DNA from: Altererythrobacter ishigakiensis
GTDB taxonomy: Bacteria; Pseudomonadota; Alphaproteobacteria; Sphingomonadales; Sphingomonadaceae
DNA length: 64,000 nucleotides
Assembly (NCBI RefSeq): GCF_001663155.1
Contig: NZ_CP015963.1
Coordinates: 1,512,001-1,576,000, forward strand
Direction: 5' to 3'
The notes under the pieces were generated by a model, which had not been told where the DNA came from, ran no database searches, and worked only from the letters and a program-made list of their open reading frames with translations. The position numbers and the translations under genes are program-made. This document shows, in pieces, positions 6,626-28,073 of the stretch. Every line of letters starts with the position of its first letter. Within the stretch, counting starts at the first letter, position 1.

Positions 6626-8062
6626 TTAGCTGCGCGTGCTGATCCGCTCCATGATCGATTTTGCGAATGTCGTCAGCGTGTCGTCGCGTGCGCCCATCAC
6701 TGCGATGCGGTCGCCGGGCTGAGCCAGTTCGACAATCCGCGCGCCGCAATCTTCACGGTCAGCGATATGCTCGGCCGTGCCGCCAGCATCCTCAATCATC
6801 GCGATGATCCGTTCGGTCCCTTCGCTGCGATCGACTGTGCCGCCGAAATAGACCGGGTCACACATGATCGTGATGTCGTCTGCGTCCAGTTCGCGCGCGA
6901 AAGTCTCGGCCAGTTCCTTGCCCATCTGTTTGAGCGGACCGTAGCCATGCGGCTGGAAGAACGCGATCACGCGCCCGGGGGACGATTTGAGCGTGCGCAA
7001 GGTCGCGGCGCATTTCTCCGGATTGTGGCCAAAGTCATCGATAACGGTCACACCGGTGGGGGACGTACCGATGATGTCAAAACGCCGCGCCAATCCCGCA
7101 AAGCTCGCGAGAGCTTCAACCGCTACAGCAACCGGAACGCCCGCGCAGGCCGCGCCTGCAATCGCCGCGAGCGCATTGGAGAGATTGTGCCGCCCCGGCA
7201 TGTTGAGCACCACCGGATGCTCGCTGCCATCGTGACGATCGATCACCACTCCGGCCTGCCGGATCGGGCCATCGGCGATGCTGCCCGGCACGATGCCGAT
7301 TTGCGCTTTCTCCTGCTCGACCCCGAAAGTTATCGCCTGCTGCGCTGCCGGTAATAGCGCCAGCGCCTCTGCATCGTCGGCGTTGATTGCGGCAATTCGG
7401 CTGCGCGCGAGATACTCGCCGAACAGCACACGCAATTCGTCCATGCTCTTGTGGTCGAGCGAGACGTTGAGGAGCACGCCGACAGCCGGGCGATAAAGCG
7501 CGATGGAGCCGTCGCTTTCGTCGACTTCGCTGACATAGATGCTGCGCCCGCCCACAACCGCGCTGGCGATCGGGTGATCTTCAGTAACGAAGTTCTTCAT
7601 CACTGCGCCATTCATGATCGTCGGTTCGCGCCCGGCGAATTGCATGATCCAGCCCAGCATGCCAGTGACGGTCGATTTGCCGCTGGTCCCCGCAATCGCG
7701 ATCCCTGCGCCGCTGGTGTTGAACAGGATCGAATTGAGCTCGGCCCGCGTCAGCTTCAGGCAGCCCAGCTCTTTCGCGCGCACCATTTCAGGCACAGTGT
7801 CTTCCACAGCGGCGGAAGCGACCAGGATCTGGTCTTTCGAAGTGATCCCGCTGCCGTCTTGCGAGAAGAGCTTGAAACCTTGCGCCTCGAGCGCGGCGAA
7901 TTTCTCAGGCGTGCGGCCCTGATCGCGGCTGCGGTCCGAGCCAGAAACCTGCGCGCCTTGCCCGGCCAGGATTTGCGCCAGCGGAAGCATGCCTGACCCG
8001 CCAATCCCGCAGAAGAAGAACGGGCGCTGCAACAATTCATCATAGGTGGGGAATTCACTCAT
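6626..8062 (-). CDS. Mur ligase family protein (MurC/Mpl-like)
   Basis: ATP-dependent ligase of 478 residues that would join an amino acid or peptide to a UDP-muramoyl precursor. Seen: the N-terminal Rossmann motif GIGGSGMLPLAQ (19-30), the P-loop GTSGKST (125-131), the central region with EVDESDGS, and a C-terminal domain carrying DDFGHNPEK. The frame extends upstream to 8404, but that part overlaps the divergent ldcA gene and is unlike Mur ligases, so the ATG at 8062 is chosen. The fold fits MurC (adds L-Ala) and Mpl (re-attaches recycled tripeptide). It is not inside a division/cell-wall cluster and sits back to back with an LD-carboxypeptidase, so Mpl is the more likely role. This is an inference. 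Confidence 0.82.
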   Translation of the reverse strand: MSEFPTYDELLQRPFFFCGIGGSGMLPLAQILAGQGAQVSGSDRSRDQGRTPEKFAALEAQGFKLFSQDGSGITSKDQILVASAAVEDTVPEMVRAKELGCLKLTRAELNSILFNTSGAGIAIAGTSGKSTVTGMLGWIMQFAGREPTIMNGAVMKNFVTEDHPIASAVVGGRSIYVSEVDESDGSIALYRPAVGVLLNVSLDHKSMDELRVLFGEYLARSRIAAINADDAEALALLPAAQQAITFGVEQEKAQIGIVPGSIADGPIRQAGVVIDRHDGSEHPVVLNMPGRHNLSNALAAIAGAACAGVPVAVAVEALASFAGLARRFDIIGTSPTGVTVIDDFGHNPEKCAATLRTLKSSPGRVIAFFQPHGYGPLKQMGKELAETFARELDADDITIMCDPVYFGGTVDRSEGTERIIAMIEDAGGTAEHIADREDCGARIVELAQPGDRIAVMGARDDTLTTFAKSIMERISTRS

Positions 8063-8115
8063 GCGCGGTGCGGTATTGAGTTGTGCGCAGCAAGACAAGC
8101 GGGCACAGTAGCAAG

Positions 8116-8946
8116 ATGACCAGAATTGCTGTTTGCGCCCCTGCCACTGCGATAACCCGCGATCATGCTGAAGCGGCCGAGGCACTGGTGGCGGACGAAT
8201 TCCCGCAGCATTCGATCCATTTTCACGATCAGTGCTTTCTTGGCGCCGGGCATTTCGCGGGAGCAGATATCGAGCGGCTCGAAGCCTTGGTCGAACTGGC
8301 CAATGACCCGCAATATGACGCTGTGTGGTTTGCCAAGGGTGGCTATGGCTCGAACCGCATTGCCGAGGCAGCGGTTGCCCGCATGAATGAGGCTGCCAGA
8401 GCAAAGACCTATGTTGGCTTTTCGGACATGGGATATCTGCTGGCTGCCTTTTATCGGCACGGCATAGGCCAACCAGTCCACGGTTCCATGCCGGTAAGCG
8501 CTCGCAGCGAGACAGGCCGTGAGGCGGTTCGGCGCGTGTTGCGCTGGTTTTCGGGCGATGGCAGCGGGCTGGAGCCTAGCCTTGATGGGCAAACTCCCGC
8601 GGTTGCTTTTAACCTGATTACGCTTGCGATGATCATCGGGACGCCGCTGATGCCGAAACTCGACGGGCATGTCGTGATGGTCGAGGAAGTGAGCGAGCAC
8701 CTCTATTCGGTTGACCGGTTGTTTTTCCACATTGCCAATGCCTTGCCGCGCATTGCCGGGTTCAGACTGGGCAGCGTAACCGCCGTTCCCGAGAATGATC
8801 GCGAATTCGGGCAAGAGGCTGAAGATATTGCGAAATTCTGGTGCGCGAGAGCGGGTATCCCATATCTTGGACGGGCGCAGATTGGCCATACAGCGGAGAA
8901 CCGGATTGTGCCATTCGGCCTTGCGAGTCCGCCGACTGGCGACTAA
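8116..8946 (+). CDS. ldcA: LD-carboxypeptidase (peptidase family S66)
   Basis: Serine peptidase that removes the terminal D-alanine from muropeptide tetrapeptides in peptidoglycan recycling. The 276-residue product has the S66 layout: N-terminal domain with FAKGGYGSNRI, the nucleophile in GFSD (Ser103), an acidic residue in VEEVSEHLY, and the C-terminal His in QIGHTAENRIVPFG. The frame can be extended to 8083, but the family start MTRIAVCAPA begins at the ATG at 8116. It diverges from the Mur ligase gene across a 53-bp gap, and is followed 24 bases later by fabD on the same strand. Confidence 0.88.
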   Translation: MTRIAVCAPATAITRDHAEAAEALVADEFPQHSIHFHDQCFLGAGHFAGADIERLEALVELANDPQYDAVWFAKGGYGSNRIAEAAVARMNEAARAKTYVGFSDMGYLLAAFYRHGIGQPVHGSMPVSARSETGREAVRRVLRWFSGDGSGLEPSLDGQTPAVAFNLITLAMIIGTPLMPKLDGHVVMVEEVSEHLYSVDRLFFHIANALPRIAGFRLGSVTAVPENDREFGQEAEDIAKFWCARAGIPYLGRAQIGHTAENRIVPFGLASPPTGD

Positions 8947-8970
8947 CCGGCGCCTCAAGAGGAGACATTG

Positions 8971-9909
8971 ATGAGAGCATTCATTTTTCCGGGGCAGGGC
9001 AGCCAGAAGGTTGGCATGGGTGCAGATCTTGCTGAAGCCAGCGCCGCTGCGCGCGAGGTTTTCGAAGAGGTAGATGAGGCGCTGTCGCAAAAGCTTTCCG
9101 CGATCATGCGTGAAGGCCCCGAAAATCAGCTTACCCTGACGGAGAACGCGCAGCCTGCGATCATGGCCAATGCCATTGCCACCTTGCGCGTGCTTGAACG
9201 CGAATTCGGCGTATCTCTGGCCGAGAAGGGCGCTTGCGTTGCCGGCCACTCCCTCGGCGAATATTCAGCGCTATGCGCGGTTGGTGCATTTTCGTTGGCG
9301 GACACTGCGCGGTTGCTGAAATTGCGCGGGCAGGCGATGCAGGCAGCCGTACCTGTGGGTCAGGGCGCAATGGCGGCTCTACTGGGCGCGGATATCGATA
9401 AGGCCACTGCCTTGGCCGAAGCTGCGGCTGACGGTGAAGTTTGCGAAGTCGCGAATGACAATGACCCGACACAGGTTGTTATAAGTGGCCATAAAGGTGC
9501 CATCGACCGCGCGATTGTGCTAACCAAAGAGCACGGCATCAAGCGCGGGATTGCGCTGCCGGTCTCTGCACCATTCCACTGCTCTCTGATGCAGCCGGCC
9601 GCAGACCGCATGGCAGAGGCACTGGCAGTGACACCTCCGGGCGAATTCACACTGCCTGTTTTTGCCAACGTTACAGCCGCAAAGGTTAGCGATCCTGCTA
9701 TAGAACAGCAGCTGCTGGTCGAACAGGTCACAGGCCGCGTGCGCTGGCGCGAAAGCGTGCTGGCGATGCGCGCAGATGGCGTAGAGCAATTCGTCGAATT
9801 GGGCGGAAAAGTGCTGGGCCCAATGGTTGGCCGGATTGACAAGGAAGCCTCAACTGTCAGCCTTATCACTATGGAAGATATCGAGAATTTTGCGAAGGAG
9901 ATCGCCTGA
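8971..9909 (+). CDS. fabD: Malonyl-CoA:ACP transacylase
   Basis: Transfers malonyl from CoA to acyl-carrier protein to feed fatty acid synthesis. It has the start MRAFIFPGQGSQKVGMG with the GQGSQ motif, the nucleophile in GHSLGEYSA (Ser94), and the His in APFHCSLM. At 312 residues it has the normal length. A strong AAGAGGAG ribosome-binding site lies six bases before the ATG at 8971, so the TTG one codon upstream is not used. The stop overlaps the fabG start by one base (TGATG), indicating translational coupling. Confidence 0.97.
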   Translation: MRAFIFPGQGSQKVGMGADLAEASAAAREVFEEVDEALSQKLSAIMREGPENQLTLTENAQPAIMANAIATLRVLEREFGVSLAEKGACVAGHSLGEYSALCAVGAFSLADTARLLKLRGQAMQAAVPVGQGAMAALLGADIDKATALAEAAADGEVCEVANDNDPTQVVISGHKGAIDRAIVLTKEHGIKRGIALPVSAPFHCSLMQPAADRMAEALAVTPPGEFTLPVFANVTAAKVSDPAIEQQLLVEQVTGRVRWRESVLAMRADGVEQFVELGGKVLGPMVGRIDKEASTVSLITMEDIENFAKEIA

Positions 9910-10670
9910 TGTTCTCACTCAATGGCATGAATGCGCTGGTAACAGGCGCTAGCGGCGGAATAGGTTCGGCGATCTGCAAGGCACTGGCTAGCCAAGGTGC
10001 ACGGCTGGCGATCTCAGGATCAAATGCAGCCAAGCTTCGCGCTTTTCGCGATCAACTCAATGACGAGTATGAGCATGACAATGGCGAGCATGTAGAGATT
10101 ACCTGCAACCTGTCTGACAGCACACAGGTAGAGGAACTGATCCCGGCCACGCTCGACACGCTGGGCGGGATCGATATTCTGGTAAATAACGCAGGGATCA
10201 CGCGCGATAATCTGGCCCTGCGAATGAAGGACGAAGAATGGGATGATGTGATCCGCATCAACCTCGAATCGACCTTCCGCCTGATGCGTGCCTCTGCGCG
10301 CCCGATGATGAAGAACCGCTTTGGCCGGATCATCTCGATCACCAGCGTCGTCGGCGCAACAGGTAACCCGGGTCAGATGAACTATGCTGCTGCTAAGGCG
10401 GGCATCGTTGGTATGACCAAGAGCTTCGCGCAAGAAGTCGCAAGCCGCGGCATCACCGCCAATTGCATCGCGCCGGGCTTTATCCGCACCGCCATGACCG
10501 ACCAATTGCCGGACGCGCAGAAAGACGCGCTAAATGCGCGCATCCCTATGGGCCGCATGGGTGAAGGCGAAGATATCGGCGCGGCAGTGGCGTTCCTTTC
10601 CAGCCGGGAGGCTGGCTACATCACTGGCGAAACCATGCACGTGAACGGAGGCATGGCGATGTTGGGATAA
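9909..10670 (+). CDS. fabG: 3-oxoacyl-ACP reductase
   Basis: NADPH-dependent short-chain dehydrogenase that reduces 3-oxoacyl-ACP in fatty acid elongation. It has 253 residues with the cofactor motif TGASGGIG (12-19), NNAG (93-96), and the catalytic Ser146, Tyr159 and Lys163 (YAAAK). The C-terminal MHVNGGMAMLG end is typical of FabG. The coupling to fabD confirms fatty acid synthesis rather than another SDR role. No acpP or fabF follows; dnaN is the next gene. Confidence 0.96.
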   Translation: MFSLNGMNALVTGASGGIGSAICKALASQGARLAISGSNAAKLRAFRDQLNDEYEHDNGEHVEITCNLSDSTQVEELIPATLDTLGGIDILVNNAGITRDNLALRMKDEEWDDVIRINLESTFRLMRASARPMMKNRFGRIISITSVVGATGNPGQMNYAAAKAGIVGMTKSFAQEVASRGITANCIAPGFIRTAMTDQLPDAQKDALNARIPMGRMGEGEDIGAAVAFLSSREAGYITGETMHVNGGMAMLG

Positions 10671-19737: not shown

Positions 19738-21435
19738 TTATCTTTCTTCCACTACGTAGAGACCGGGGGCTGGGTCCAGAGGCTTGTACTCCTCGTTCCC
19801 CAGTTCTGTTGGGGCCGGTTTCATGTCGCCGGAGCGCTTTTTCATCCAATCCATCCAGAATGGCCACCAGCTGCCGGCCACTTCTTCAGTGCCTTCCAGC
19901 CATTCGTCAGCGGTTGCTGGCAATTTACCCTTCTTCTTCTGGACGAAATACTTCGCTTTGGGATTGCCCGGCGGGTTGAGGATCGCCTGCATGTGTCCGG
20001 ACTGTGAAAGAACGTACGTAACGTCCTTGGAACCAAACAATTGTGTGGACCGATACGTCGCTTTCCATGGCGTGATATGGTCCGTCACACCGCCCAGAAT
20101 AAACATGTCAGATTTGACCTTGCTCAGGTCAATCTTGTGCCCAGCCATCTCAACTTCGCCCTTTTTGGTGAAAGCGAGCGTTTCGAACAGCGTCAGGAAA
20201 TCGCCCATCAGGCTGGCGGACAGATTGGTCGCGTCAGAGTTCCAGTAGAGCACATCGAAGGCGGGTGGGTCCTGCCCGAGCAGGTAGTTATTGATCACAT
20301 AGTTCCAGATCAGATCGTTCGGGCGTAACCACGCAAAACCACGGGCAAGATCATCAGCCTTGATAATACCTTTCTTCTCTGCTCGCTGGCGGGCCAGCTT
20401 CATGCCGTTTTCGGAAACCAGTGAGCCCGCTTCGATATCGCGCTCTTTAGGGTGCAGAACGCAAACCATTAACGTCAGCGAGCCAAGGATATCGTTCTTC
20501 TGCGATGCCAGCTTGGATGCGAGCACGCTGGCAGTTTGTCCGCCAGAACAGCCCGCGGACACGTTGACCTTCTTGGAGCCTGTAATGTCTGCGACTGCCT
20601 GGATCGCTTCCTCGCAAGAGGCGATATAGTCATCCATCCCCCACACGCCCTGTTCCTTGGACGGGTTGCGCCAGGAGATGACGAAAGTCTGGATGCCATT
20701 GTCAACCTGATACTTGATCACTGACTTCTCTGGCGAAAGGTCATTGATGTACATCTTGTTGATCTGAGGCGGGATCGTCAGCTGGGGAATCTCATGTACT
20801 TCGTCGGTGGTCGGCGCATAGTGCACCAGCTCAAACATCTCCGTACGAAGAACAACAGAGCCCTTTGATGTAGCGATATTCTCGCCCAGCTTGAACGGTC
20901 GCTTGTCGACCTGGCTCACCATCCCCTTGTTTTCGGTGATATCCTTGTATGCGTTTTGCAGGCCCTTGATCAGCGACAGGCCGCCGCTGTTGATGACTTG
21001 CTTCTGTGCGACAGGATTTCCGATCAGCGTATTTGTCGGGGCGAGGCTATCGATGATGATATTGGAAATGAAGTTTGCGCGATCACGCTCGAGATCGTCC
21101 AGTTCCAGCTCTTGCAACCAATTCGACATGCCTTTCTGGATCGCCAGGTAATACTGCGCGCCCGCACGAAAGAATGGATTGTACTGCCACGCCGGGTCCA
21201 TGAAGCGCTTGTCTTTAGGGTCGGGCGCTAGATCAGACTTGCCGGTCATGATCTTGATCATGTCCTCACCCATGCTTTGCGCATGCTTCATCAGACGCTT
21301 TGGATCAGAGGCAGTTTCGCGCAACAGGACCGCCACAGCGCCAACGAAGTCTTCTCGCGCGACCCCGATCAGCGGCCCCAGCGCATTGGTCGATTGTGCT
21401 GCTTCGTTCTCGAGTTTGCTGCTCTGCGACATCAT
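19738..21435 (-). CDS. phaC: Poly(3-hydroxyalkanoate) synthase, class-II-like
   Basis: Polymerises 3-hydroxyacyl-CoA into storage polyester on granules. The 565-residue protein carries the catalytic Cys296 in the lipase-like box SAGCSGGQT, preceded by NKMYINDLSPEKS and VISWRNPSKEQ. The catalytic Asp region (GVTDHITPWKAT) and His (SQSGHMQAI) follow near the C-terminus. The box and surrounding residues resemble the Pseudomonas class II synthases more than the class I enzymes usual in alphaproteobacteria. No phaE, phaR or phasin gene is adjacent. Divergent from a c-di-GMP enzyme gene across a 214-bp gap. Confidence 0.9.
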   Translation of the reverse strand: MMSQSSKLENEAAQSTNALGPLIGVAREDFVGAVAVLLRETASDPKRLMKHAQSMGEDMIKIMTGKSDLAPDPKDKRFMDPAWQYNPFFRAGAQYYLAIQKGMSNWLQELELDDLERDRANFISNIIIDSLAPTNTLIGNPVAQKQVINSGGLSLIKGLQNAYKDITENKGMVSQVDKRPFKLGENIATSKGSVVLRTEMFELVHYAPTTDEVHEIPQLTIPPQINKMYINDLSPEKSVIKYQVDNGIQTFVISWRNPSKEQGVWGMDDYIASCEEAIQAVADITGSKKVNVSAGCSGGQTASVLASKLASQKNDILGSLTLMVCVLHPKERDIEAGSLVSENGMKLARQRAEKKGIIKADDLARGFAWLRPNDLIWNYVINNYLLGQDPPAFDVLYWNSDATNLSASLMGDFLTLFETLAFTKKGEVEMAGHKIDLSKVKSDMFILGGVTDHITPWKATYRSTQLFGSKDVTYVLSQSGHMQAILNPPGNPKAKYFVQKKKGKLPATADEWLEGTEEVAGSWWPFWMDWMKKRSGDMKPAPTELGNEEYKPLDPAPGLYVVEER

Positions 21436-21649: not shown

Positions 21650-23827
21650 TTGGCCAAGCCATTGTCGGTATTGAAAGATATATTCGTCAGCAGGCGGCAA
21701 GCCGCGGATGCTGCGCGCAAGGCACAGATGATTGACAGCTTTGAGAGTGCAGGACTGGGGTATTTCTGGTCGACCGATGCACAGGGCAATATCGATTATC
21801 TAACGCCGTCTGCCTTCAGCAATCTTGGATGGAACCGCAAGGCTGTGACCGGCACGCCGATCAGCAACCATTTATTACCTGCGGAAGATCCAGACAAAGG
21901 CAATGAACGCCCTCTGTCGTTTCTACTTTCCGCGCGAAACTCGATTACAGGTCTCACCGTAAAGTTGAAGACTGACATTGGCGATGTCTGGTGGGAAATT
22001 TCCGGCAAGCCTCAGTTTGACGCATCTGGTGAATTCGCAGGGTATCGAGGCAGCGCCAAGGACATTACGCATAGTCGGACTGAAGCGGCCGCCAATGATC
22101 GCCGCACCCAAGTCGATACGCTTACCGGCCTTGCCAACAAGACACAAATCAAGCGTGTTCTTACGCAAAACTTACGCGTGTTTAGAAACACTAAGCAGTC
22201 CTGCGCAGTCCTCATGGTCGACCTTGATCGCTTCAAACAGGTCAACGAAACACTTGGTCAGGCTGCCGGCAATGAGCTCCTTAAACAAGCAGCTGGCCGA
22301 CTTGGCCGCATTGCAAGCGACAAGATTTCGATTGCGCGATTGAGCGCAGACGAATTTCTGGTTGTGATGCCGGACGTGGATGACCGCGCAATCCTTGGCG
22401 ATATGGCTCAGCGTGTTGTGCAAATTCTCTCGCAGCCATTTGCGATTGACAGCAATCAGGCCAACGTAGGCGCTTCGGTTGGGATCGCGGTCGCTCCTTA
22501 CGATGGAGTCGAAACTGATGAGCTTCTCAATGCATCAGAAATGGCTTTGTTTGCTGCCAAGGGAAGCGGAAATGGCAAATATCGCTTCTACTCTAGCGAT
22601 CTGAAAAAACAGGCCAAGCACCGTGGTGAGATTGAGTCTGAATTGCGCGAAGCGATCGCCAAGGATCAGCTGCGCATGTTCTATCAACCTATCATCTGCG
22701 CAAGAACACATGCGCTGAAATGTGTTGAAGCTTTGATCAGGTGGGATCACCCCGAACGCGGCTGGATTTCGCCTGGAGAATTCATACCCATTGCTGAAGA
22801 ATCCGGAGTGATCCGCAAGGTAGGCGCATGGGCGTTGCGACAAGTCTGTGAGGACGCGCAAAACTGGCCGGTTGAAATTCGCGCTGCAATCAACGTGTCC
22901 GCGGTGCAGTTTGAGCATGATGATTTCGTCCAGATCGCCAAGAAAGCTTTGATTGAATCTGGCATTGAGCCATCGAGGATCGAGCTTGAAATTACGGAAA
23001 GTGTCTTCGTCGGCGACTATGACGGGATCATGAAGATTTTCAAAGGTTTGAAGGGTCTGGGGGTCCGCCTGTCATTGGACGATTTTGGTACCGGTTACAG
23101 CTCTCTAAGCTATCTGCGCAATGCGCCATTTGACAAGATCAAGATCGATCAGAGCTTTGTTCGTGGGTGCACAGAACCGGGCAATAACAATTCGGCTATT
23201 ATACGGGCGATTGTCAGTTTGGCAGAAGCGCTCGACATGGAGACTGTCGCTGAAGGCATTGAAGCGAAGGATGAGCTTGAATTGGTCAAGCGGCGCGGCG
23301 CAACACACCTGCAAGGGCTGATATTCTCGGGCGCAGTTTCCAATGATGAATTGCTCGCGAAACTTGAGAGCGGTGTACTGACTTATGAACCGCGTGGCCC
23401 TGAAAAGTATCGCGCTGACAGGCGAACAGAATTTCGCAGGATCGGCCTGATTCACGACGATCATCGTTATGATGTCGTATTGCGTAACCTCTCCAAGAGC
23501 GGAGCCTTGATTGAGGGGCTTCTGCGCGTACCGGTGGGCACTGAAATTGTGCTCGATCTTGGAGGTGGCCAACTTGCGGTGGCCACGGTGCGGCGATCCA
23601 ATGAATATGCGCAAGGGGTCGAATTCGAAACACCCCTGATCAGCGACGGCGCCGACGGTTTGTGCACTCGCCACCGGGTCTCTCCATATCAGATCGAAGC
23701 GGCTGGAAGGCCACTTGCCGCTTTGCCGGATGATCCCTACGCGGCGATGAGTTCAGGATATCAGGCGCATGCGAGACCAAAGGCTTTCGTCCAGGTCGAT
23801 ACGTCGCGTCGAGACGCAGCTGCGTAA
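21650..23827 (+). CDS. PAS-GGDEF-EAL-PilZ protein, degenerate GGDEF, intact EAL
   Basis: A 725-residue cytoplasmic c-di-GMP protein. Domains: PAS (about 28-140), GGDEF (150-315), EAL (325-575) and PilZ (585-690). The cyclase site is SADEF (232-236) instead of GGDEF, and the substrate-binding run reads VNETLGQAAGNELL, with changes at positions normally Asp, His and Asp, so cyclase activity is unlikely. The EAL domain keeps EAL (360-362), INVSAVQF, LEITES, DDFGTG (477-482), KID (498-500) and AEGIE (Glu535), so phosphodiesterase activity is predicted. The PilZ motifs RTEFR and NLSKSG are present. The frame opens at TTG 21650; ATG 21728 is a possible shorter start. Followed by a paralogue with the opposite pattern. 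Confidence 0.87.
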   Translation: MAKPLSVLKDIFVSRRQAADAARKAQMIDSFESAGLGYFWSTDAQGNIDYLTPSAFSNLGWNRKAVTGTPISNHLLPAEDPDKGNERPLSFLLSARNSITGLTVKLKTDIGDVWWEISGKPQFDASGEFAGYRGSAKDITHSRTEAAANDRRTQVDTLTGLANKTQIKRVLTQNLRVFRNTKQSCAVLMVDLDRFKQVNETLGQAAGNELLKQAAGRLGRIASDKISIARLSADEFLVVMPDVDDRAILGDMAQRVVQILSQPFAIDSNQANVGASVGIAVAPYDGVETDELLNASEMALFAAKGSGNGKYRFYSSDLKKQAKHRGEIESELREAIAKDQLRMFYQPIICARTHALKCVEALIRWDHPERGWISPGEFIPIAEESGVIRKVGAWALRQVCEDAQNWPVEIRAAINVSAVQFEHDDFVQIAKKALIESGIEPSRIELEITESVFVGDYDGIMKIFKGLKGLGVRLSLDDFGTGYSSLSYLRNAPFDKIKIDQSFVRGCTEPGNNNSAIIRAIVSLAEALDMETVAEGIEAKDELELVKRRGATHLQGLIFSGAVSNDELLAKLESGVLTYEPRGPEKYRADRRTEFRRIGLIHDDHRYDVVLRNLSKSGALIEGLLRVPVGTEIVLDLGGGQLAVATVRRSNEYAQGVEFETPLISDGADGLCTRHRVSPYQIEAAGRPLAALPDDPYAAMSSGYQAHARPKAFVQVDTSRRDAAA

Positions 23828-23888
23828 GCCGCAGTTAGCCGGCGCGGTCGCCGCCGAAAATTAGGAGAAAAATAACCATCTGGCTTTA

Positions 23889-23913
23889 GATCCCGGAAAG
23901 TGGCTTCGGGATC
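23889..23913. repeat. Inverted repeat in the leader of the second c-di-GMP gene
   Basis: A 7-bp perfect inverted repeat (23889-23895 and 23907-23913, 11-base loop) lies 30 bases before the start of the second PAS-GGDEF-EAL-PilZ gene. It could be an operator, an mRNA hairpin or chance. There is no T tract, so it is not a standard terminator. Confidence 0.35.
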
Positions 23914-23942
23914 GAAGCGAGTAAGTCGAGGAGATTGTGGGC

Positions 23943-26147
23943 GTGCCCCTCAAGGGACTCTTGTCGGGTAAAGAAGGCGGACTTTTCGCCTCTGCTGGCC
24001 GTCGTTTTGGCGGGGCTGGCGCGAATTCGATGTCCGACGCCGACAAGCTCACAATGCTTGATGAACTCGAGCAGTCTGGACTCGGATGGTTCTGGTCGAC
24101 CGACAAGCAAGGCAATCTTACCTATATCAGCGGCGCAATCGCCGATCGCATTGAATTGACCATTCCTGATCTCATCGGCCAACCTTTGACGGGATTATTC
24201 GAGTCAAAGGAGGGAGACGGTCGGTCCAAATCACTCTCTTTGAAACTTGGCGCGCGCAAGCCGTTTTCCGGATTTGCGGTCGCTCCCAGCAAAGGCAATT
24301 CCAAAGTGGTGATCCGGCTTGCGGGTCGGCCGGCATTTGAAAGGAACGGCACGTTTTGTGGATTTCGAGGTACCGGGACTGACATAACCGAAGAATATTA
24401 CCGCGAGGAAGAAACCGCGCGGCTGGCAAAGTATGACTCCTTGACCGGGCTTTTCAATCGGCACCGCATGGCCCATTCGATTGAAACAACGCTCACTGCG
24501 TTTCGTTCGGCAAAACGCAATTGCGCCATCATGATGCTGGACCTTGACCGTTTCAAACAGGTCAATGACACGCTTGGCCACGCTGCTGGCGATGAATTGT
24601 TGAAGCAGGTTGCAAGTCGCTTGCAGCGTGCGGTTGAAAAGGACTGTGAAATCGGGCGCCTTGGCGGCGACGAATTCCAGATAATGCTGCCTGACATCGA
24701 TGATCGCGGCGAATTGGGAGAGATCGCGGCACGAATTATCGCGATGCTGACTCAGCCATACTCGCTCGATGAAGGCCGCTGCATGATCGGGGCATCTGTC
24801 GGGATTGCCGTGGCGCCGCACGATGGGCTTAATCGCGAGGCAATTGTCAGGTCAGCTGATCTGGCGCTTTATGCGGCCAAGAATGGTGGGCGTGGTCAAT
24901 ATCGCTTCTACTCCGGTGACCTCGAGAACGAAGCTATTTTCCGCCGACGTCTCGAAGAAAGCCTGCAGGAGGCGATCCGGGACGAGCAGCTGTTCCTGAC
25001 TTATCAACCGATGGTTTCCGCTGAGTCGCAGAGGGTAATTGCGTTAGAGGCGCAGACACGCTGGCAGCATCCGCAGAGAGGCGAAATTGACAATGATGAA
25101 TTCCAGTCGATCGTCGAGAACTCGGCCCATGTAATCGAAGTAGGCAATTGGGCGATTCGGCAAGCTTGCCGGGAAGCAAGTCAGTGGCCTGACCCGCTGC
25201 GCGTGACAGTCAATGTACCTAGCAAGCAGTTTGCTTCGGAGGGCTTTGTCGAGAGTGTTGCTCAAGCCCTGAACGATACCGAACTCGCACCTGACCGGTT
25301 GGAACTGGAAGTCAAGGAATCGGTATTTGTTGGTGACAGCAATGTCGTCGACAAGGTTCTTGGCCAGTTATTCAAGCTAGGCGTGCGGTTGACCCTCGAT
25401 GAATTTGGTACGGGGTATTCTTCGCTCGGATACCTGCGCCGCGCGCCATTTGACTCGATCAAGATTGGCGAGAGCTTTTGTCCTTCACATCTCGACAGCC
25501 ACTCTCAGGAGCTGGGATTAGTAAAAGCGGTGGTGGCGCTGGCAAAGGCGCTGGACATGTCGACCATCGCCAGCGAGATCGAAACGATCTCCCAGCAACA
25601 GGCATTGGCAAGCGTGGGGGTCAGCTTGTTGCAAGGGGCAGTGTATGCTGACGCCGTTTCGGGCGAAGAGGTGCATGAACAGTTGGCGACCGGTGGCTGG
25701 ATGATTGAGCCCTCAGCTGGCCGCGGGTCACGTGCAAAACGGCGCACGCTTCTGCGCAAGATCCACGTTATTCATGACGATCACTCTTACGAGGTCACAC
25801 TCCGCAATCTCTCCAAAACAGGCGCATTGTTGCAGGGGCTGGAAAATGTGCCGCTGGATACGCAGTTTGTCGTTGATCTGGGCGGCGGACAGCTTGCGGT
25901 TGCGACAGTGATCCGTTCGAACCGCGACACACAAGGGGTCGAGTTTGAGACGCCGCTGATCGGCGACGGCGCGGGCGGACTGTGCACTCGTCACCGCGTT
26001 TCACCGTATGAATTGGCGTCCGCAGGTGCACCTTTGGCGGCATTGTCAAAAGGCAATTACAATTCGATGCAGGGAAGCATGCTGGGCGATGGCACCAGCG
26101 TGCCGAAGTTCGCATACGCCCCGGTCGGCTCTTCCGAAGCAGCCTGA
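23943..26147 (+). CDS. PAS-GGDEF-EAL-PilZ protein, intact GGDEF, degenerate EAL
   Basis: Paralogue of the preceding gene, about 734 residues with the same order PAS, GGDEF, EAL, PilZ. Here the cyclase domain is canonical: FKQVNDTLGHAAGDELL and RLGGDEF (GGDEF at 241-245); no RxxD inhibitory site is visible in the usual place. The EAL domain has lost key residues: EAL reads EAQ (369-371), DDFGTG reads DEFGTG (486-), KID reads KIG, and AEGIE reads ASEIE, which removes the usual catalytic Glu. It is therefore predicted to be a cyclase. PilZ motifs RTLLR and NLSKTG remain. Start: GAGGAG is nine bases before the GTG at 23943 and only three before the GTG at 23937. The gap to the first gene is about 115 bases. 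Confidence 0.87.
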   Translation: MPLKGLLSGKEGGLFASAGRRFGGAGANSMSDADKLTMLDELEQSGLGWFWSTDKQGNLTYISGAIADRIELTIPDLIGQPLTGLFESKEGDGRSKSLSLKLGARKPFSGFAVAPSKGNSKVVIRLAGRPAFERNGTFCGFRGTGTDITEEYYREEETARLAKYDSLTGLFNRHRMAHSIETTLTAFRSAKRNCAIMMLDLDRFKQVNDTLGHAAGDELLKQVASRLQRAVEKDCEIGRLGGDEFQIMLPDIDDRGELGEIAARIIAMLTQPYSLDEGRCMIGASVGIAVAPHDGLNREAIVRSADLALYAAKNGGRGQYRFYSGDLENEAIFRRRLEESLQEAIRDEQLFLTYQPMVSAESQRVIALEAQTRWQHPQRGEIDNDEFQSIVENSAHVIEVGNWAIRQACREASQWPDPLRVTVNVPSKQFASEGFVESVAQALNDTELAPDRLELEVKESVFVGDSNVVDKVLGQLFKLGVRLTLDEFGTGYSSLGYLRRAPFDSIKIGESFCPSHLDSHSQELGLVKAVVALAKALDMSTIASEIETISQQQALASVGVSLLQGAVYADAVSGEEVHEQLATGGWMIEPSAGRGSRAKRRTLLRKIHVIHDDHSYEVTLRNLSKTGALLQGLENVPLDTQFVVDLGGGQLAVATVIRSNRDTQGVEFETPLIGDGAGGLCTRHRVSPYELASAGAPLAALSKGNYNSMQGSMLGDGTSVPKFAYAPVGSSEAA

Positions 26148-26255: not shown

Positions 26256-28073
26256 ATGACTGACCTCTCCAAGATCCGCAATTTCTCCATTATCGCCCAT
26301 ATCGATCACGGCAAGTCCACGCTGGCTGACCGGCTGATCCAGTATTGCGGCGGCCTGACCGAGCGTGAAATGTCCGAGCAAGTGCTCGATAACATGGACA
26401 TTGAGCGTGAACGCGGCATCACCATCAAGGCGCAGACCGTGCGGCTCAACTACACCGCCAAGGATGGCGAGACCTATGAGCTGAACCTGATGGACACGCC
26501 CGGCCACGTGGATTTCGCTTACGAGGTCAGCCGCTCACTCGCCGCATGCGAAGGCGCACTGCTGATTGTGGACGCCGCGCAGGGCGTAGAGGCGCAAACG
26601 CTCGCCAATGTCTACCAATCGATCGAGCATGACCACGAAATCGTGCCTGTCATCAACAAGATTGACCTGCCCGCGGCAGAGCCGGACAAGGTCCGCGCAG
26701 AGATCGAGGACATCATTGGCCTCGACGCATCCGAAGCCGTGCTGACCAGCGCTAAATCGGGCATCGGCATCGAAGATGTGCTGGAGGCGGTCGTCGCCAA
26801 AATCCCCGCACCATCAGGCGACCGCGACGCGCCGCTGAAGGCCTCGCTGGTTGACAGCTGGTACGACCCCTACCTCGGCGTTGTCATCCTCGTCCGCGTG
26901 ATCGACGGCGTCATCACCAAGGGGCTGAACGTCAAATTCATGCAGGGCGGGACGCAGCACCTGATTGACCGCGTCGGCTGCTTCACCCCCAAACGCACGG
27001 ACCTGCCTGAAATCGGCCCCGGCGAAATCGGCTTCATCACCGCGCAGATCAAAGAGGTTGAGCAAGCCCGCGTGGGTGACACGATCACCACGGTCAAGAA
27101 CGGCGCGCCCGAACCGCTGAAGGGCTATAAGGAAGTGCAGCCGGTGGTTTTCTGCGGGCTTTTCCCGGTCGACGCGGCAGACTTCGAGAAACTGCGTGAG
27201 AGCATCGGCAAGCTGCGCCTCAATGACGCCAGCTTCAGCTACGAGATGGAGAGCTCCGCCGCGCTCGGTTTCGGCTTCCGCGCGGGCTTCCTTGGCCTGT
27301 TGCACCTTGAGATCATTCAAGAGCGGCTGAGCCGCGAATACGATCTCGATCTCATCACCACCGCGCCTTCGGTGGTGTACCGCGTGCACCTCAGCAAGTC
27401 GAAGAATGAAGACGCCAAGGTCATCGACATTCACAACCCCGCCGATTGGCCCGATGTGAACCGAATCGACGTGATCGAGGAGCCGTGGATCAAGGCGGTG
27501 ATCTACACGCCGGACGAGTATCTGGGCGCGATCCTGAAACTGTGTCAGGACCGGCGCGGCATTCAGACCGATCTGACTTATGTCGGCGGTCGCGCGCAGG
27601 TCACTTACGAGTTGCCGCTGAATGAAGTGGTGTTCGATTTTTATGACCGGCTGAAGAGCATCTCCAGAGGCTATGCCAGCTTTGACTATGAACAGATTGG
27701 CCTGCGCGAAGGCGATCTGGTGAAAATGAACATTCTGGTGAATGCGGAGCCCGTCGATGCGCTATCGCTGATCGTGCACCGCTCCGTTGCGGAAGAGCGC
27801 GGGCGCGGCATGTGCGAACGGCTGAAAGACCTGATCCCGCGCCACCTGTTCAAGATCCCAATCCAGGCGGCGATTGGCGGCAAGATCATCGCGCGCGAGA
27901 CGATCGCCGCGCTGCGCAAGGATGTGACCGCGAAATGCTATGGCGGCGACATTACCCGCAAGAAGAAACTGCTGGAGAAGCAGAAAAAGGGTAAGGCAAG
28001 GATGCGCGAATACGGGAATGTTAGTATTCCGCAGGAAGCCTTTATTGCGGCGCTCAGGATGGGAGAGGAGTAG
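26256..28073 (+). CDS. lepA: Elongation factor 4 (LepA) GTPase
   Basis: Ribosome-associated translational GTPase linked to back-translocation and ribosome assembly. The 605-residue protein begins [20 protein letters not shown] (P-loop), followed by the switch I region [19 protein letters not shown] (G3) and NKIDLP (G4). The EF-G-like domains lead to the LepA-specific C-terminal domain with [18 protein letters not shown]. Length and motifs match the family. The ATG at 26256 is preceded by only a weak ribosome-binding site. No signal peptidase gene follows, unlike in E. coli. Confidence 0.98.

Follow-up and report, generated by a model that had tools for sequence, protein, structure and literature searches.

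A predicted c-di-GMP locus of Altererythrobacter and its relatives, with an old EAL loss in one gene and a graded GGDEF decay in its neighbour

The closest described counterparts of the two genes considered here, A and B, are found in the cdg1-3 operons of Komagataeibacter (Acetobacter) xylinus (Tal et al., 1998, as cited in PMC6559022), in which pdeA lies upstream of dgc, the same gene order as that of A and B (PMC6559022). As here, the cdg genes are mutually similar, the products of both kinds have a PAS-type N-terminus with GGDEF and EAL domains, and the EAL domains are deviant in the cyclases (PMC6559022; PMC10333796). The cited accounts describe activities set by experiment, whereas A and B are likened to the cdg enzymes by architecture and gene order; in contrast to the present locus, the passages on the cdg operons in these sources mention neither PilZ nor a third paralogue. 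In Escherichia coli, DgcO and PdeO (DosC and DosP) are an operon-encoded antagonistic cyclase and phosphodiesterase according to PMC5635695, although the two are not paralogues of the same plan and no PilZ was matched in them. Alignments show that DosP, like A, has a non-canonical GGDEF domain beside its EAL domain. DosC is not known to have an EAL domain. The cdg operons and DgcO/PdeO provide strong precedent for an antagonistic pair.

Zymomonas mobilis ZMO1055 and its Sphingomonas homologues belong to the same bacterial order as the DNA studied here. ZMO1055 is described as a PAS-GGDEF-EAL phosphodiesterase with a degenerate GGDEF domain and with homologues that have a predicted functional one (PMC10333796), but it is a single gene without PilZ, and its degenerate GGDEF domain is reported to be active (PMC12900916). 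The best solved relatives of both GGDEF-EAL cores are MorA (PA4601) and PA0575 of Pseudomonas aeruginosa, which were matched by both proteins (4rnh, 305.7 and 285.2 bits; 5m3c, 299.5 and 280.0 bits); the matched chains have no PilZ, and no description of them as paired tandem paralogues was met. Whole-model fold searches gave results filled by GGDEF-EAL chains. A search of titles and abstract beginnings in the open-licence PMC literature found no description of a phaC-[A][L][B]-lepA locus, and the Erythrobacter flavus light-signalling proteins DGC-0450 and DGC-2902 showed, in the account of PMC12172448, no sign of belonging to the A/B/L family.

The window, the whole 64,000-nucleotide stretch of Altererythrobacter ishigakiensis DNA that was analysed, carries A and B head to tail (Table 1). 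Their proteins align over 679 residues with 46% identity (624 bits), and the coordinates given in a preliminary description of the window proved exact. EAL and GGDEF score far over the Pfam cut-offs in both. The PAS domain of A passes its curated cut-off (PF00989, 33.7 bits against 22.6), and that of B falls just under (PAS_9, 25.9 bits against 27). PilZ was absent from the Pfam matches at E <= 1e-3 when the whole A and B proteins were searched; the C-terminal pieces searched alone stayed somewhat below the curated cut-off (Table 1), and a third paralogue of the same plan, L, scored well over it (35.9 bits). AlphaFold models, built from hand-picked input alignments of 43 and 41 rows, have a row of beta strands at this region in both proteins. 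PilZ is less secure in both proteins than the preliminary description suggests; in its favour are the score of L, the strands and the RRxxxR and NxSxxG motifs, kept in both. Among unique proteins, RRxxxR with (N/D)xSxxG is present in 97 of 97 B, and 54 of 78 A have RRxxxR complete together with NxSxxG. Past the PilZ region lies a conserved C-terminal tail around GLCTRHRVSPY (window 23645-23749 for A, and the equivalent C-terminus in B), common to A, B and the X paralogues and absent in L; no other copy of it was found in the window's genome at E <= 10. The tail is perhaps a docking part.

Table 1. Features of the locus in the window
Feature	Position	Strand	Details
phaC-type gene, divergent, conserved neighbour	19738..21435	-	Pfam PhaC_N; synteny
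Gene A, PAS-GGDEF-EAL-PilZ, predicted phosphodiesterase with decayed GGDEF	21650..23827	+	ORF 725 aa, TTG start
Decayed GGDEF domain of A, with SADEF (22343-22357), D344N and R446N	22109..22573	+	Pfam GGDEF, 120.6 bits
EAL domain of A, every scored catalytic and metal position intact	22640..23329	+	Pfam EAL, 221.5 bits
PilZ-like domain of A; RRxxxR and NxSxxG kept	23402..23644	+	19.8 bits against cut-off 22.5; beta strands in AlphaFold model
A-B gap, 109 bp	23828..23936	+	No terminator-like or promoter-like site
Gene B, PAS-GGDEF-EAL-PilZ, predicted diguanylate cyclase with pseudo-EAL	23937..26147	+	ORF 736 aa, GTG start
GGDEF domain of B, 10 of 10 scored residues intact	24426..24896	+	Pfam, 147.7 bits
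Pseudo-EAL domain of B: EAQ, DEFGTG, KIG, ASEIE	24957..25649	+	Pfam, 190.6 bits
PilZ-like domain of B; RRxxxR and NxSxxG kept	25722..25964	+	21.6 bits against cut-off 22.5; beta strands in AlphaFold model
lepA-type gene (presumed name), conserved downstream neighbour	26256..28073	+	Synteny by blastp

The motif readings of the preliminary description were right for both genes, residue for residue, and the changed GTP-binding residues that it reported for A are D344N and R446N. A reads SADEF (G368S and G369A in the PleD residue set), EAL, DDFGTG, KID and AEGIE, and in its EAL domain E175, N233, E265, D295, D296, K316, D318 and E352 are all present. B reads GGDEF with the EAL motifs listed in Table 1. 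Its GGDEF domain keeps GG(D/E)EF, D327, F331, N335, D344, K442 and R446, as do all 97 unique B proteins, and its EAL domain has lost L177, D296, D318 and E352 of the RocR set, with S in place of the catalytic E352 and E and G in place of the metal-site D296 and D318, which departs from the EAL phosphodiesterase residue set. Apart from R179, E352 and E355, the RocR labels were placed by motif. The roles of the PleD residues and of R179, E352 and E355 are as given in PMC12943098, and that of D344 in guanine binding and of R446 as given there and in PMC6559022. The importance of the DD pair is visible in a MorA structure too (4rnf, titled as a mutant phosphodiesterase), which reads NNFGTG. The RxxD inhibition site five residues ahead of GGDEF is missing in both proteins, where A has S..I and B has E..C in these columns. 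Across the alignments, chance is no concern for the motif losses, since orthologues agree in which catalytic positions are kept or lost. The pair in the window consists of adjacent same-strand genes with a full GGDEF set in B and a full EAL set in A, the pattern of an antagonistic pair, and loss of the residues would presumably mean loss of the activity.

Our preferred reading, held with fair assurance, is that A and B lie in a conserved c-di-GMP locus in which B would be a cyclase and A a phosphodiesterase with a dying GGDEF domain, the two having become reciprocal only recently. What can be read off the sequences is the architecture, the residue states, the order and recurrence of the losses and the conservation of the locus; from these, B is most likely cyclase-only with a kept pseudo-EAL domain, and the A of the window most likely a phosphodiesterase whose GGDEF domain is dying. 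The two genes would be members of a multi-copy A, L, B locus found in the Erythrobacter/Altererythrobacter group and in bacteria related to it. As a dedicated diguanylate cyclase, B would have an EAL domain from which the catalytic glutamate and one metal ligand disappeared once, long ago, with the EAL fold and most of the loop-6 motif kept after that loss. A would be an EAL phosphodiesterase, and because its GGDEF domain appears to be decaying stepwise in the lineage of the window's species, the pair would be reciprocal only of late. B would then make c-di-GMP without RxxD product inhibition and A would remove it, each with its own PAS input and a PilZ domain possibly sensing the product. A and B are probably antagonists, as in the Komagataeibacter cdg operons, and may act as source and sink for a single pool, tuned by PAS inputs and by feedback through PilZ; they may also be in contact and have a target in common. 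An adjacent antagonistic pair is in itself known; the surprise is the asymmetry and the graded record.

The locus was followed through relatives that include, among others, Erythrobacter, Altererythrobacter, Qipengyuania, Porphyrobacter, Pontixanthobacter and Novosphingobium. In 119 family genomes, a match to gene A (E <= 1e-100) was present in 105 and one to gene B (E <= 1e-130) in 68, counts that include other paralogues. Among 100 genomes of the genus, 93 had a gene B match at E <= 1e-150; they yielded 82 genus loci (the window, one further genome, G040, and 80 further stretches), a count that left out genomes with fragments or no match. The conserved order is phaC, then [A][L][B], then a gene that we take to be lepA, with the family genes on one strand and the divergent phaC on the other side; outside the genus the typical order is L and then an A-type gene. 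The 82 loci comprise 34 with L-B, 31 with A-B as in the window, nine with A-L-B, seven with B alone and one with B and fragments, and in 73 of them B has next to it an A or L with a complete EAL set. Because B is alone in seven loci and beside fragments in one, it needs no obligatory partner. Median gaps are 132 bp for A-B (n=31), 130 for L-B (n=43) and 100 for A-L (n=9), lengths that hinge on the first possible start codon. L, missing from the window's locus and elsewhere found between A and B or beside B, is a membrane-type protein of about 900-910 aa with extra N-terminal residues that include several hydrophobic stretches, which gave no Pfam match at E <= 1e-3; in one example PAS is first matched from residue 273 onwards. 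One such gene lies at 7535-10282 of locus L144. In the window's A-B gap, a search for terminator-like or promoter-like sites found none, which bears only indirectly on co-transcription; A and B are presumably co-transcribed. The gap holds an inverted repeat, GATCCCG...CGGGATC (window 23888-23922), with no T run; an RNA hairpin there was considered and dropped (z -0.80, with 46 of 200 shuffles folding equally well). The phaC-type polyhydroxyalkanoate synthase gene adjoins the locus in most mapped loci, and a link to the control of storage polymer is possible.

It is a serious possibility, though on balance doubtful, that A and B adjoin for historical reasons only, do not act as a pair, and have lost their residues by separate drift, the signalling network being a crowded one. 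The genome of the window, one 2.67-Mb contig, has 10 GGDEF, seven EAL and nine PilZ matches (seven of the latter over the cut-off); the place next to B may be taken by A, by L or by neither; and in one genome (G008) the GGDEF domain of the A-type gene is decayed and a search of the genome found no B, the same gene of its congener G100 having lost EAL residues instead. However, order and strand are conserved, the gaps are short with no terminator between the genes in the window, and the EAL-complete neighbour recurs in nearly nine tenths of the genus loci.

Gene B was EAL-broken and GGDEF-perfect in all 82 genus loci examined. Neighbourhood ORFs gave 365 family proteins, of which 330 unique ones remained when those of at least 640 aa were kept and duplicates removed, with no read-through of ORFs with internal stops. 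Among these, all ten scored GGDEF positions are present in 97 of 97 B and the EAL set is broken in 96. E352 is absent in 95, the exceptions being L083, with a complete EAL domain, and L055, with E265D only; over the 330-protein tree its absence from 96 proteins takes two changes, one of them outside B. On this tree, B lost the catalytic glutamate once, before the genus arose. In TBD1265, change of the counterpart of E352 abolished activity, as reported in PMC12943098. In loop 6 of B (n=95), the first aspartate is kept in 94 proteins and the second in five; F, both G, S, L and Y are kept in all 95, and T has become S in most. Intact paralogues share 86 conserved EAL columns, of which 55 are the same in genus B, six fixed otherwise and 25 variable; for 63 conserved GGDEF columns the figures are 58, two and three. 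Divergence over 37 loci is about twofold higher in the EAL domain of B than in its GGDEF domain (0.347 against 0.160) and near equal in the two domains of A (0.312 and 0.296). By these comparisons, the EAL domain of B is relaxed but retained.

It is conceivable, though we think it unlikely, that the inactive domains persist because they serve a shared complex, in which the pseudo-EAL domain of B would pair in trans with the live EAL domain of its neighbour, A or L, and set its activity, all in one hetero-assembly. The fold and most of loop 6 have stayed constant as R179, D296 and E352 were lost, and loop 6 is reported to mediate EAL dimerisation; the loss of the GGDEF domain of A would be tolerated once the assembly drew all synthesis from B.

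The preferred reading, a cyclase beside a phosphodiesterase with a dying GGDEF domain, sets the old loss in B against a recent one in A. The EAL set of A is complete in 73 of 78 unique proteins and the GGDEF set decayed in seven. Of the 40 A-bearing genus loci, 35 have the full GGDEF motif set, with a complete EAL set in 34 of these and Q372E in one, and only five are decayed. The division between A and B that the preliminary description proposed to look for in related genomes is accordingly confined to those five, the other 35 being one-sided with B cyclase-only by motif. It had proposed a dedicated phosphodiesterase and a dedicated cyclase arising by reciprocal loss: as a motif end state in the window this stands, and as a history it fails, because decay is non-reciprocal at those 35 loci. 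Its interpretation is thus partly supported, and the self-contained local switch that it suggested stays a conjecture. Among 17 named loci with both genes, which partly overlap genomes also carrying G codes, A is decayed in four and the EAL domain of B broken in all 17; decayed A occurs in the named loci L165, L166, L171 and L174 (Altererythrobacter xiamenensis). By the trees, decay in A arose separately at least three times (in L125, L126 and the window; in L134, L135 and L171; and in L060), and a fourth decay change on the 330-protein tree falls on the L protein of locus L232. Decay in A was also compared with loss of L, and no link is claimed (none of nine A-bearing loci with L against five of 31 without, cases that are not independent).

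Within the window's lineage the decay is graded: A of L126 has GG-DE with N344, K446 and DEY for DEF, that of L125 has SGDEF, and that of the window SADEF and N446. The A gene of L126 (8637-10889) keeps GG-DE with D344 changed to N; at this position a change of D to S alters base choice in Hypr GGDEF enzymes, as described in PMC12943098, and the domain may have changed its preferred nucleotide before it decayed further. The ratio of GGDEF to EAL divergence, measured against A proteins from outside, is 1.10-1.30 in all five decayed genus A and 0.42-0.86 in all 32 intact ones, from which the decay extends over the whole GGDEF domain. Because synonymous sites were saturated or nearly so for the window's own pairs, no claim is made on dN/dS per domain. 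In A-type genes adjoining lepA in two congeners, opposite halves are lost: in G008 (L060) the GGDEF residues, with D327N and GADEF, and in its G100 orthologue (L049) the EAL residues (EAQ, DE and KIH), with E352 kept. Both halves are decayed in none of the 330 proteins, a figure near chance and suggestive only (about 5% if losses were independent, by our own estimate, over related rows). According to a review (PMC10333796), the forces behind inactivation of GGDEF and EAL domains can be studied with orthologues that share a chromosomal position but not the integrity of these domains. The present locus is a dense natural series of this kind, with a fixed EAL-broken cyclase by motif beside a hybrid orthologue that is intact, half-decayed or fully decayed in close relatives; the two congeners add the same gene losing opposite halves, and assays of living orthologues could order the loss of activity directly. 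The reciprocal split appears to be a recent end state, and the record of its origin is unusually clear.

A might also still make c-di-GMP despite SADEF, N344 and N446, which would leave a bifunctional A and no clean split. Its GGDEF domain still folds in the AlphaFold model, and degenerate motifs can remain active, which by analogy counts against an inactive A: according to PMC12900916, Zymomonas ZMO0401 and ZMO1055 show cyclase activity with GNDEF and GGDQF, respectively. We nevertheless regard this as quite improbable, as four scored positions (both glycines, the guanine-binding D344 and R446) have changed together and the whole GGDEF domain diverges faster.

For B, the kept fold and the constancy of E175, E268 and D295 in all 85 genus B proteins would suit a pseudo-EAL domain that serves as a c-di-GMP receptor of the FimX or LapD kind and not as a mere structural or regulatory part. 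However, ExLxR, described in PMC10333796 as decisive for binding, is broken: the window has ExQxR, and of the 85 proteins 80 have C at R179 and 77 have one of H, Q, R, T and K at L177. A receptor role therefore seems very unlikely. In the B proteins of the window and of L125 the residue at R179 (residue 375) is an arginine, probably a reversal inside the pseudo-domain.

The origin of the pair was traced on the 330-protein tree and a companion tree, both built with FastTree after removal of the scored catalytic columns, with several inner forks poorly supported. A (78 proteins), B (97) and L (97) form separate clades, and those of A and B each span several genera; a mixture-model tree of 53 hand-picked proteins also separates the A and B groups, but with the X paralogues inside the A rows. 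A tree constrained to unite genus A with genus B was worse by 248.9 log-likelihood units (p-AU 3e-51). Because of the separate clades and this test, A and B are, by the trees, old paralogues and not fresh local duplicates, and recent tandem duplication within the genus is ruled out. Gene conversion between A and B was tried on 37 loci with 1000 permutations each and rejected, since in none of the PAS, GGDEF, EAL, PilZ and tail regions was identity within a genome significantly raised (lowest for PAS, 77 of 1000). Tandem duplication of one bifunctional gene, with copies that then lost opposite halves, as the preliminary description had it, suits the adjacent genes, shared domain order and complementary motif loss in the window's genome but is barely credible given the old clades, a B loss that predates the genus beside a recent one in A, the one-sided majority of loci and the lack of a conversion signal. 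The nearest relatives of B are 17 proteins (support 85), with Novosphingobium titles on nine of the 17 loci; all metal and catalytic EAL positions are kept in 15 of them, the exceptions being L185 (E265D) and L196 (D295V), and EAF is found in 11.
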